Positions 20,886 through 27,486 of a stretch of DNA of 64,000 nucleotides are shown piece by piece; positions within the stretch are counted from its first letter, which is position 1, and each line of letters opens with the position of its first letter. The stretch is taken from assembly GCA_944326485.1 (NCBI GenBank), contig CALVED010000004.1, forward strand, positions 1 through 64,000. Direction: 5' to 3'. The translations under genes and the position numbers were made by a program. The notes beneath the pieces were generated by a model. It was given only the letters and a program-made list of their open reading frames with translations. It did not search any database and was not told the origin of the DNA. The stretch is from Candidatus Gastranaerophilales bacterium. GTDB taxonomy: Bacteria > Cyanobacteriota > Vampirovibrionia > Gastranaerophilales > Gastranaerophilaceae.

Positions 20886-21974
20886 TTAGTTTCGGTAACC
20901 TATACCTGCTCTGTACCCGGATAATGTATACATCATAGGAAGGGCAGGTTCTATCCATTTTAATCCTGATAAAAGTGATACAGTTGCTATATCATCTGTA
21001 TGTAAACCTATATCTAAAATTTCAGGAGTTCTTTCTTTTTCTGCTTTTTTTGTTTTTACTTCACATCCGATGGTTTGATTATGTAAATATTCATGTATTT
21101 TTCTTTCTGAAAAATTGATATCTAATATATCATAGTTATTTGTTGTTTCTTTTTTCTTTCTGTCTTTTTTACATATTGGATCAATTACATTTTTCCCAAT
21201 TAAATTTGCAATTTTACTTCCACCAATAATACCTGTTATGATTATACCTAATGTCATTCCTATTGCTCTTGCTTTTTTTGATGTAATACCTAGTTTTTCC
21301 ATAATACCTAAAGCACAACCTGCACCTACGTTACACATAAAAATATTTGCCAGATATTGATAAGAACCTTCTTTTATTTTATTTGGAATTTTCTCTCTCC
21401 AATCTTTTTTGTCAGTAACTCTGTCTGCAATACTTCCTCCAATAATTCCTCCAATAACAGGTACTGCTCCATATATAGATAAATATCCTATTTCTGAAAA
21501 TATATCTTTCGCATTTATATTTTCTGGGGAAGGTATTAATTTCTCTAAAAAATTTTTTCCGGCATTTGTATCTTTTAATTTTTCATATAGTGTTTTAACT
21601 TCTTTTAAATTTAATATTTTTTCTTTCCCTTTTTCTAGTATTTTACTAGAGGTTTCATCAACCATTGTAGTTCTCTTAAAATTATCAATAATTTGTGTAT
21701 TTTTTTTCTTTATAATATCAAGTGTTTCTGGGAGTGCTCTTTTAGTTATTTTTGAAGCAATATGTGGTGCTGCTAGTGCAGAGGCTACGGTTACTCCCAT
21801 TGTTATACCTGTTTTTATCAGTTGTTTTTTCTTCTTGCCTTCTTTTGCTTTATTTGCATCATATAGACTATAACCTAATGCTCCGGAGGCCAAGATTATT
21901 GGTACTTTTTTTTGAAATTTTGATACTAAGATCGGCTGGTCTAAAAATTTTCCAATTATGTTCAAGTTATTCAT
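20886..21974 (-). CDS. Glycine-rich membrane protein of unknown function
   Basis: 362 residues with several Gly/Ala-rich hydrophobic segments (about 25-38, 52-70, 160-180, 205-225 and 235-255) separated by Lys-rich loops. The pattern suggests an integral membrane protein. A GIIGGSIADRV and a GIIGGSKIANLIGKN segment may be an internal duplication. The start codon overlaps the stop of the DtxR-family regulator (ATGA), so its expression must follow that regulator and its 28-bp operator. I infer a link to metal homeostasis, but I recognise no transporter family. Confidence 0.7.
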   Translation of the reverse strand: MNNLNIIGKFLDQPILVSKFQKKVPIILASGALGYSLYDANKAKEGKKKKQLIKTGITMGVTVASALAAPHIASKITKRALPETLDIIKKKNTQIIDNFKRTTMVDETSSKILEKGKEKILNLKEVKTLYEKLKDTNAGKNFLEKLIPSPENINAKDIFSEIGYLSIYGAVPVIGGIIGGSIADRVTDKKDWREKIPNKIKEGSYQYLANIFMCNVGAGCALGIMEKLGITSKKARAIGMTLGIIITGIIGGSKIANLIGKNVIDPICKKDRKKKETTNNYDILDINFSERKIHEYLHNQTIGCEVKTKKAEKERTPEILDIGLHTDDIATVSLLSGLKWIEPALPMMYTLSGYRAGIGYRN

Positions 21975-22393
21975 TTTCGGATTTTTCCTTCCTTAAAATT
22001 ATTTATAAAGTTCTTATTCTTTTCACAATATGCTTGAAATTCCTCTATCCTGTCAAAAACGTCTTCTGATATTACGTGTTCTATTTTACAAGCATTTATT
22101 TCGGCTGTTCTTTTATCAATTCCTAGTGTATTTGCAAAAAAATTTGTCAGTGTATTGTGTTTCTGTATTACTCTTTTTGCTTGTTTTAAACCTTTTTCAG
22201 TGATAGTAATACCTTTATGTCCTTCATAATTTATCAAATCTTTTTCTACTAATTTTGATAATGCCTCAGATACTGACGCTCTTGATATATTTAATTTTTT
22301 TGCAATCTCTACAGCTTTTACGCTGTTACTTGATTCAAGTAAATTACATATAATTTCTAAATAATCTTCTAAACTTGCGCTTAAGTCTTGCAT
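21971..22393 (-). CDS. DtxR-family iron-type transcriptional regulator
   Basis: Metal-dependent repressor of 140 residues: an N-terminal winged helix (about 8-65; recognition helix near SRASVSEALSKLVE) and a dimerisation/metal domain (about 70-135). The metal site reads CKIEHVIS with Cys102, Glu105 and His106, the DtxR/IdeR arrangement, suggesting iron rather than manganese. The C-terminal SH3-like domain of DtxR is missing, as in MntR-length proteins. GGAGGAAT precedes the ATG. The perfect palindrome 15 bp upstream implies autoregulation. Confidence 0.9.
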   Translation of the reverse strand: MQDLSASLEDYLEIICNLLESSNSVKAVEIAKKLNISRASVSEALSKLVEKDLINYEGHKGITITEKGLKQAKRVIQKHNTLTNFFANTLGIDKRTAEINACKIEHVISEDVFDRIEEFQAYCEKNKNFINNFKEGKIRK

Positions 22394-25623: not shown

Positions 25624-26127
25624 TTATTTCTTATCTTTTTTGTTTTTTTGAGAAAGGACAGTAAATGTCTTTACATCAACCCAAGGATCTCCTAGTGCTG
25701 TTGAAAATACAGTTCCTGTTATTTTTATTTTATCACCTTGTTCTAAATCTAAATGTTTTTCTGCTTCTTCTCTTTTCAGGAATATTTTCATTTCTGATAA
25801 TGGTATAACATGGTCAATTACATCGTTACGTTGAATTAATATTCCTATATATTTATCGCTTTCTTTTAATGCAGGTTTATAGTCAAGTCCTAAAGATGAA
25901 TATGATATAAAATCAGCATTAAATGTTATATTTTTATTTAAATATTTTGCAGGATTTTTTACAACATCTGTTGGTAAAACGTTTATAATGGCATTTGCCG
26001 ATTTCGTTGTTTTTGCCGGAGCTGCAATTGCATTATTATTTGTATAGTGTATTCCTACAAAATTTATACATAAAACCATTAAGAAAATACATAATATTTT
26101 CTTTTCTCTATTAATAAATTTTTTCAT
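25624..26127 (-). CDS. Exported protein, OB-fold-like
   Basis: 167 residues. An N-terminal hydrophobic signal (about 10-28, after a basic start) ends near NNAIAAPAK, a likely signal peptidase site. The rest is mixed beta, with NKNITFNADFISYSS, DKIKITGTVFS and DPWVDVKTFTVL strands that look like an OB fold of a nucleic-acid or ligand-binding type. No family is recognised. GAGGTTTAT gives the start. A 13-bp inverted repeat sits just upstream of that ribosome site (26140-26173). Confidence 0.65.
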   Translation of the reverse strand: MKKFINREKKILCIFLMVLCINFVGIHYTNNNAIAAPAKTTKSANAIINVLPTDVVKNPAKYLNKNITFNADFISYSSLGLDYKPALKESDKYIGILIQRNDVIDHVIPLSEMKIFLKREEAEKHLDLEQGDKIKITGTVFSTALGDPWVDVKTFTVLSQKNKKDKK

Positions 26128-26173: not shown

Positions 26174-26220
26174 CATAGTTTATCAAAAAAATAATATACT
26201 CATTAAGCTAAGTGTGTATA

Positions 26221-26317
26221 AAAGTGTAGATTGAAACAGATTTACCGAACTAATTAATAATACTTTTTCGCAACCCCGAAATAAAGTGTTCGTTTGTTTC
26301 AATCTACTTTTTTAATA
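26221..26317 (+). ncRNA. Structured RNA candidate with three nested stems
   Basis: The outer stem pairs TAGATTGAAACA (26227-26238) with TGTTTCAATCTA (26295-26306), 12 bp perfect, extended by AAAG/CTTT after a 2-nt bulge. A middle stem pairs CGAAC (26246-26250) with GTTCG (26288-26292), and an inner hairpin pairs TTTCG (26266-26270) with CGAAA (26277-26281). On the plus strand a run of seven T follows the outer stem. It lies between leuB and the exported-protein gene, both on the opposite strand. It may be an independent RNA or, on the minus strand, a leader element. Confidence 0.5.
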
Positions 26318-26403
26318 TAACTGATTTTAGGTTTTATTTCACTCTGCTGTAGAATAATTTATATAAAATATTATAATTCTTTTATATTAATGCTATAGAA
26401 GTA

Positions 26404-27486
26404 TTAATCTTTTAAAATATTATCTTTTATAGTATCACCCATTTTCTTGCATCCAATTACTTTCATGCCGTCTTGTTTTATATCTTGTGTCCTATAACCG
26501 TCTTTTAAAGTTTTTCTGACTGCATTAACAATTGTTTCATATTGTTCATCCATAGAAAACGAGTATTTTAACATCATTGCGGCAGATAGAATTGTTGCTA
26601 TAGGATTAACTATATCTTGTCCTTTTAAATCAGGTGCACTTCCATGAATAGGTTCATACATTGCAAGCTTTGTGTCTGATAAAGATGCACTTGGTAATAA
26701 ACCTAATGAACCTGATAGCATTGATGCTTCATCTGATAGAATATCTCCGAATATGTTACCCGTTAAAATAACATCAAATTGTTTTGGGTTCCTGATTATC
26801 TGCATAGCTGCATTATCTACATACATATGAGATAATTCTACTTGCGGATATTCTTTTGAAACTTGTGTTACGATCTCTCTCCATAGCCTTGAAACATCAA
26901 GAACATTTGCCTTATCAACTGAACAGAGTTTTTTATTACGTTGCATTGCAACTTTAAATGCTGTATGTGCAATTCTTTTTATCTCACTTTCAAAATAGCA
27001 CATATTATTAAAACCGAATTTTTCATTATTTTTTATTTCAATGCCTTTAGGCGTTCCAAAATATACATCGCCTGTTAATTCTCTAATAATCATAATATCT
27101 GTGCCAGATACAATGTCTGATTTTAATGGTGATAATGAGGTTAATTCTGGATAAACAATTGCAGGTCTTAAATTTGCAAATAAGTTTAATGCTTTCCTTA
27201 TGCCTAATAAAGCTCTTTCAGGTCTTACTTCAGGAGGAAGCTTGTCATATTTCCAATCACCTACAGCACCTAATAATACAGCATCAGATTTTTTTGCAAT
27301 ATCTAATGTTATATCAGGAAGAGGAGTTTTGAATTCATCATATGCACAACCTCCGATTAGAGCAGGTTCAAAATTAAAGTCTATAGAATACTTATCACCT
27401 ACTGCTTTTAATATTTTTACAGCTTCATCTGTAACTTCTTTCCCTGTGCCATCACCGGCTAACAATGCTATATTATATGTGCTCAT
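26404..27486 (-). CDS. leuB: 3-isopropylmalate dehydrogenase
   Basis: Leucine biosynthesis: oxidative decarboxylation of 3-isopropylmalate with NAD. The N-terminus has the GDGTGKEV pattern (residues 12-19), where most homologues read GDGIGPE. The substrate-binding arginines are in [21 protein letters not shown] (about 92-112, shown as RPERAL and LFANLRP). The family signature is [19 protein letters not shown] (about 239-257). 360 residues is normal. GGAGG precedes the start. It is isolated: leuA, leuC and leuD are not nearby. Confidence 0.95.

Follow-up and report, generated by a model that had tools for sequence, protein, structure and literature searches.

A conserved free-standing RNA gene in the minus strand of a Candidatus Gastranaerophilales genome

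Identity and significance of the RNA gene

The hairpin described here belongs to a Candidatus Gastranaerophilales genome and corresponds to a conserved, free-standing RNA gene encoded on the minus strand, with an 82-nt core running from 26307 to 26226 of the window (the whole stretch of 64,000 nucleotides that was analysed). Its product is probably a previously undescribed regulatory RNA, since the gene is single copy in most sampled members of its family and carries an almost unchanging tip. The limits of the core are those given by BLAST conservation, by the alignments A1, A3 and A4, by covariation and by the balance of G-U and A-C pairs. The transcript likely extends from about 26307 to 26218 (some 88-90 nt), both ends being placed from sequence signals. 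What is expected of a stand-alone non-coding RNA was found, namely a covarying structure together with a predicted promoter of its own and an apparent independence from the neighbouring genes.

The Gastranaerophilales, which are related to cyanobacteria, live in animal guts. With its single copy and near-unchanging tip, and with members in 27 of the 41 genera sampled in the family, the RNA could readily be proposed as a new Rfam family; it can be searched for in existing faecal metatranscriptomes, and the palindrome located upstream offers an entry to an uncharacterised regulon.

Structure and covariation

A first-pass annotation had proposed three concentric stems at this place and all three are present. 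In the plus-strand reading, the outer helix consists of 12 perfect pairs between 26226-26237 (GTAGATTGAAAC) and 26296-26307 (GTTTCAATCTAC); on the minus strand, its 5' arm (26296-26307) reads GTAGATTGAAAC and its 3' arm (26226-26237) reads GTTTCAATCTAC, and the pairs between them covary. Within the 58 nt enclosed by this outer stem, a 5-bp middle helix pairs, on the minus strand, the 5' arm CGAAC (26288-26292) with the 3' arm GTTCG (26246-26250, CGAAC in the plus reading). Finally, the inner stem (TTTCG at 26266-26270 and CGAAA at 26277-26281 in the plus reading) forms on the minus strand the apical hairpin TTTCG-GGGTTG-CGAAA (26266-26281), with the loop GGGTTG at 26276-26271. The annotation had also supposed that such pairing exceeds chance, and the folding energies agree with it on either strand: -24.9 kcal/mol on the plus strand against -9.9 +/- 2.4 for shuffled sequences (z -6.2), and -24.2 on the minus strand against -11.2 +/- 2.9 (z -4.6), with none of 200 shuffles as good in each case.

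Covariation was considered in two main alignments. A1 is a MAFFT alignment that was not fitted to the structure and contains the 32 distinct same-genus cores obtained from 37 loci (5 duplicates; a locus cut by a contig end, L091, was left out). Of its cells, 98.6% are paired under the nested structure, with changes on both sides at 7 of 24 pairs (0 of 500 shuffles) and a covariation score of 0.130 that none of 500 shuffles reaches (0.092 shuffled); the number of further pair types in A1 is not exceptional (194 of 500 shuffles). A4 has 75 rows and, like A3 (52) and A6 (57), holds chosen loci that are a subset of those fetched. It was aligned with the covariance model and thus fitted to the structure, so that its covariation counts are inflated: both-side changes in 349 cells, where shuffles give 124.6 (0/500), such changes at 18 of 26 pairs (5/500), further pair types at 6/500, and a covariation score of 0.477 against 0.232 (0/500), or at most 0.133 when slid. 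Outer positions illustrate these exchanges, one with A-U in 39 rows and G-C in 36, another with U-A in 35 and C-G in 31. Indeed, the sequence of the outer stem differs between genera while its pairing is kept, and the middle helix has six pairs in many members from other genera, with both-side changes at four of the six. The pairing is therefore kept, with compensatory changes, in homologous intergenic regions, and a lack of such conservation is what the annotation had named as its refutation.

Two other foldings were considered, of which the first was rejected and the second is not claimed. RNAalifold suggested for A1 a side-by-side fold of two hairpins which, with each helix extended by one pair, is paired in 91.6% of cells; its extensions, at columns 21-28 and 38-72, fail, being unpaired in 32/32 and 27/32 rows. 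The inner-stem pairs do not vary and so cannot decide between the two folds. The nested fold is preferred because the middle helix covaries over the family and because the nested pair 21-67 changes from C-G to U-A in two rows of A1. An extra hairpin (AAGA/UCUU) beside the apical one is weak, limited to some lineages and found in no member of the own genus.

The apical tip

The apical hairpin is the most constant part of the molecule. The tip UCGGGGUUGCGA is exact in 73 of the 75 aligned members, and the three closing pairs UCG/CGA are unchanged in 75/75 rows of A4. Likewise, TCGGGGTTGCGA is exact in 73/75 rows of A4 (all except L130 and L141) and also in 12 members of A5, which gathers 20 weaker ones; the other eight, compared by eye, have a similar tip with small departures (six members) or a different one (L311 and L312, two members of genus g70).

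Assignment to the minus strand

In minus-strand orientation, the first ten outer pairs of the 75 sequences comprise 660 Watson-Crick, 61 G-U, 1 A-C and 3 other cells, and all 26 pairs comprise 1576, 162, 44 and 127 cells, respectively. Since these G-U cells would become A-C mismatches if the RNA were read from the plus strand, the minus strand is the RNA strand. The covariance model R1 likewise scores the locus at 110.6 bits on the minus and 33.8 bits on the plus strand. When the same-genus loci are oriented in this way, the kept elements on the minus strand are TATATT or TATAGT before the stem, a GTGAAA-like box 17 bp further up, and ACTTTTTT 3' of the 3' arm of the outer stem. The hairpin had initially been described as antisense to both neighbours, which does not hold: the RNA lies on the minus strand, as do leuB and the gene of the exported protein.

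A coding or mobile origin was also considered and rejected. A small ORF within the RNA, in the frame opened by the TTG of the loop, would yield 50 different readings, and any ATG is found in only 25 of 75 rows. Against a mobile element stand the one copy per genome, with few exceptions, and the absence of any match to a strict 23-mer in viral contigs.

Distribution among relatives

A BLAST search with positions 26200-26330 returned one full-length place in the own genome and, among 98 genomes (own included), matches with E below 1e-9 in 38 of the 41 same-genus genomes, own included; three genomes of the genus (G013, G019, G032) gave no BLAST match, one place (G028) was cut by a contig end, and the best match outside the genus had an E value of 0.002. 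In the same-genus genomes, the RNA shows 75-97% nucleotide identity, mostly 84-97%, and the neighbouring exported protein mostly 52-62% amino-acid identity (69-89% in four genomes). The RNA is, on the prevailing values, more conserved than the gene next to it.

Covariance models extended this distribution beyond the genus. A model built from A1 found the RNA in 61 of 191 family genomes and 14 of 41 genera, and model R2, built from 52 family sequences with the nested structure, in 129 of 191 genomes and 27 of 41 genera, three of the genomes having two places; the remaining 62 family genomes had no match to R2. At the level of the class, R2 matched 143 of 289 genomes, every one in Gastranaerophilaceae. 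At the level of the order, model R3 matched 247 of 383 genomes in 30 of 52 genera, nearly always in single copy. Its only match outside the family lies in a genome of another family of the order (G067, E 2.5e-6) that is flagged as 7% contaminated, and may represent a foreign contig or a true distant member. Among the matches listed, the titles of the contigs carrying the motif mostly read Candidatus Gastranaerophilales, Melainabacteria or uncultured bacterium, and a few name other groups. One locus titled Gammaproteobacteria (L252) matched the pattern without matching the fold (98 matches from 99 sources) and was left out of the neighbour tally.

Gene neighbourhood

In the window, the RNA lies between leuB upstream (26404-27486, minus strand; an ORF with Pfam PF00180) and the gene of an exported protein downstream (25624-26127, minus strand; an ORF with no Pfam match at E 0.001). 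Neighbours were tallied over 179 places, with one place per locus, two collections left unmerged and L252 left out; the strict core pattern by which the places were located missed six further loci (L035, L037, L038, L046, L130 and L141). The downstream gene encodes a PpiC-type isomerase in 86 places and the exported protein in 36. As to direction, the strand of the RNA is shared by the next gene in 130 places and not in 41, and no next gene is present on the stretch in 8. Upstream, leuB is found in 39 of the 179 places and in 28 of the 34 same-genus places. Given such varied neighbours on both sides, the RNA is tied to no single gene. Elsewhere in the window, a gene for an iron-dependent repressor of the DtxR/MntR type was observed at 21971-22393 (Pfam PF01325 and PF02742).

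Promoter and 3' end

A sigma70-like promoter is predicted on the minus strand at 26342-26314, ending at the start of the stem and keeping a near-constant spacing to the RNA among the loci. It is composed of a -10 box TATATT (26314-26319), kept as TATATT, TATAGT or a TATNAT-like sequence, and, 17 bp away, of a -35 box GTGAAA (26337-26342), which is GTGAAA-like in many genera. Both boxes were returned by the promoter scan, which is weak when taken alone, since it found 7 promoter-like sites where 2.8 were expected. The -35 box overlaps a proximal upstream motif, TTATTCTACAGCAGAGTG (26341-26358, minus strand), which is TTATTCTNNNRGAGTGGTG-like in many genera. The run of T that had been noticed after the outer stem on the plus strand does exist; it counts six nucleotides (26308-26313) and not the seven first reported. 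With the promoter placed as predicted, this run serves on the minus strand as the spacer separating the -10 box from the RNA's first base, and is not a conserved terminator tail.

At the other end, the 3' arm of the outer helix is followed on the minus strand by a terminator-like tail ACTTTT (26220-26225), which reads ACTTTTTTATG in many members of the genus. A run of at least four T within 16 nt of the stem end is present in 31/32 same-genus rows and in 34/63 rows from other genera; the other 29 of these 63 rows have no T run after the stem, which makes the 3' end of the RNA uncertain in other genera. In the own genus, the outer stem may terminate the transcript of the RNA itself. A generic terminator scan found no terminator at the RNA locus. 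Five loci (L104, L106, L107, L118 and L119) have a pyrimidine tail, such as CCTCCTCC or CCCCT, instead of T right after the outer stem, and these tails resemble an anti-Shine-Dalgarno motif.

Upstream palindrome and putative regulon

Further upstream lies a distal imperfect palindrome, TTAATGCTATAGAAGTATTAA (26387-26407), which has a 5-bp spacer and shares a few bases with the end of leuB. It scores 14 of 14 positions, the best of 20 shuffles of the same stretch reaching 12, and its location is close to that of the 18-bp operator in other genera. There, an imperfect 18-bp palindrome CTAATNCTNNAGNATTAG is often found upstream, mostly at about -98 and otherwise at about -85 or -65. Among rows from other genera, the palindrome scores 13-14 of 14 in 38/63 and at least 12 in 52/63; as a control, 20 mononucleotide shuffles per row gave a mean best score of 10.5, individual shuffles reaching 12-13 and, in one case, 14. 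The palindrome is mostly degenerate in the own genus (at least 12 of 14 in 12/32 rows).

The pattern was also searched in 12 genomes, hand-picked partly because the palindrome had already been seen before their RNA. Nine of them carry 1-3 sites, for a total of 16, three have no exact site, and the reversed pattern gave no match in the 12 genomes. Seven of the 16 sites precede the RNA, four precede a carbohydrate phosphorylase gene (L313, L323, L324, L327), one a gene with Rex-like domains (L321) and three genes encoding a pilin-type N-terminus (L316, L320, L328), and one lies inside a coding frame (L326); Pfam was run for L313, L321 and L316 only. In each of the eight loci with a phosphorylase, Rex-like or pilin-type gene, CTAATNCTNNAGNATTAG occupies positions 1501-1518. 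As a putative operator, CTAATNCTNNAGNATTAG marks a small regulon shared in the Gastranaerophilaceae that would comprise the RNA and the carbohydrate phosphorylase, Rex-like and pilin-like genes. The Rex-like protein and an XRE-type HTH protein, both encoded next to sites, are candidates for the factor that binds it.

Proposed function and rival explanations

We favour, with a confidence that stays moderate, the reading of this gene as a regulatory small RNA that acts in trans through its tip, its expression and contacts being putative. The conserved sigma70-like promoter would drive transcription, with a start at 26307 or an adjoining position, and the transcript would end in or just after the terminal helix. 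The level of the RNA would be set by a transcription factor binding the upstream palindrome, whose position suggests activation. The long stem of variable sequence may serve as a scaffold displaying the near-invariant UCG-GGGUUG-CGA hairpin to a partner, and the most likely contact would be base-pairing of the GGGGUUG loop with one or more mRNAs.

Candidate targets were searched accordingly in two ways. With up to 2 mismatches allowed, sites antisense to the conserved 13-mer are no more numerous than those of the reversed pattern in 5 of 6 genomes (7 against 11 in the own genome), the sixth (G209) having 37 against 18. In four phosphorylase leaders (L329, L331, L332 and L335), ACCCC, complementary to GGGGU of the tip, was observed near the presumed mRNA start, with the palindrome there too. 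The leader set covers 40 of 44 matched genomes, leaving out G006, L349 and L350 (no start found) and L371 (too short). ACCCC within 80 nt of the ATG was found by script in 4 of 27 leaders from RNA-positive genomes, with L330 added by eye, and in none of the 13 other phosphorylase leaders. Near the presumed phosphorylase mRNA start, it is confined to genera g7, g52, g14 and g2 and is absent from four phosphorylase leaders of the own genus; being present in few genera and absent from the own one, the phosphorylase leader was rejected for now as a general target.

The main rival to mRNA pairing is protein binding, in which an RNA-binding protein docks on the apical hairpin and is titrated or guided by the RNA, which would work like CsrB or 6S RNA without belonging to either family. 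We hold this to be a possible explanation, though a tentative one. The closing pairs of the tip are as invariant as the loop (75/75 rows) while the outer helix varies freely, which fits recognition by a protein at least as well as pairing with an mRNA; the rod-like fold with a conserved tip and the lack of a clear antisense enrichment of the 13-mer point the same way. Against it, each RNA has a single copy of the tip motif, and RNA sponges usually repeat their motif. A more specific proposal, to which we give little credence, is a regulatory RNA specific to the Gastranaerophilaceae, with its tip docking an RNA-binding protein or a ribosomal partner, and switched on by the same transcription factor as the phosphorylase and rex-like genes. 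If true, these gut relatives of cyanobacteria would possess, in this docking RNA, the RNA arm of a regulon for carbon storage or redox.

Explanations that attach the hairpin to a neighbouring gene fare less well. A cis-acting leader (riboswitch or attenuator) for the downstream minus-strand gene would agree with the exported-protein gene being next in 26/34 same-genus places, with the PpiC-type isomerase gene lying within 184 nt downstream in 86/179 places, and with the next gene being on the strand of the RNA in 130/179. We judge it unlikely: the downstream families differ, the next gene is opposite in 41/179 places and missing from the stretch in 8, the RNA has its own T run in the genus, and in four genomes (G004, G008, G031, G033) the RNA is found 20 kb away from the exported-protein gene or on another contig. 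The constant position before one gene family that characterises a riboswitch or leader was thus not found. The first annotation had left the choice between an independent RNA and a minus-strand leader; the former is better supported, since varying downstream gene families and an opposite direction in 41/179 places make a single-gene leader unlikely. Taken as a whole, that annotation is partly supported. It is still harder to see the hairpin as only a terminator or DNA-level element of leuB with no RNA function. The hairpin does lie 78-142 nt after leuB in 28/34 same-genus places and its genus form ends in a T run; but a terminator requires neither a promoter with fixed start nor a 12-nt tip that is kept in genera with other genes upstream, and compensatory changes denote selection on a folded RNA. 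Nor does the element combine the GC-rich stem, short loop and T run of an intrinsic terminator, and we regard this explanation as very improbable. A chance inverted repeat, for which nothing speaks, is refuted by the folding against shuffles and by conservation with covariation, and we attach practically no weight to it.

Comparison with known RNA families

Rfam 15 gave no match in the window at gathering score; between 26121 and 26420, with E values allowed up to 10, there were only three matches (E 7.3-8), far below their gathering scores. Among the open-access papers retrieved on small or noncoding RNAs, Rfam and regulons in Gastranaerophilales, Melainabacteria and Vampirovibrio, no title or opening of an abstract reports such an RNA, and the nearest paper by these (PMC9378797) deals with rumen microRNAs, which is another matter. 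Fremin and Bhatt (2021, PMC8040213) described candidate structured RNAs of human microbiomes, conserved in intergenic regions of gut bacteria. The new RNA is the same kind of object, a conserved intergenic structured RNA; the main text of that paper names no Melainabacteria, Gastranaerophil- or Cyanobacteria, and its supplementary list may already include the RNA.

With 6S RNA (RF00013), the new RNA shares a rod-like shape closed by a long terminal helix; it differs by having half the length (the 6S model has 187 positions) and by occurring in a genome with a separate 6S RNA, found above cut-off on contig C5. The small SRP RNA (RF00169) is similar in its rod-like hairpin of about 90-100 nt, its conserved tip and its one copy per genome, but a separate SRP RNA is present above cut-off on contig C3, and some genera of the family yielded no match to the new RNA. 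Neither of these two covariance models matches the RNA locus. Yfr1, NsiR4 and IsaR1 are trans-acting small RNAs of cyanobacteria. Compared with bacterial trans-acting small RNAs, the new RNA stands apart by its lack of an Rfam match and by its confinement to one family, with one doubtful exception; it resembles them in being short, single-copy and intergenic, with a predicted promoter of its own and a highly conserved segment carried on a variable scaffold.
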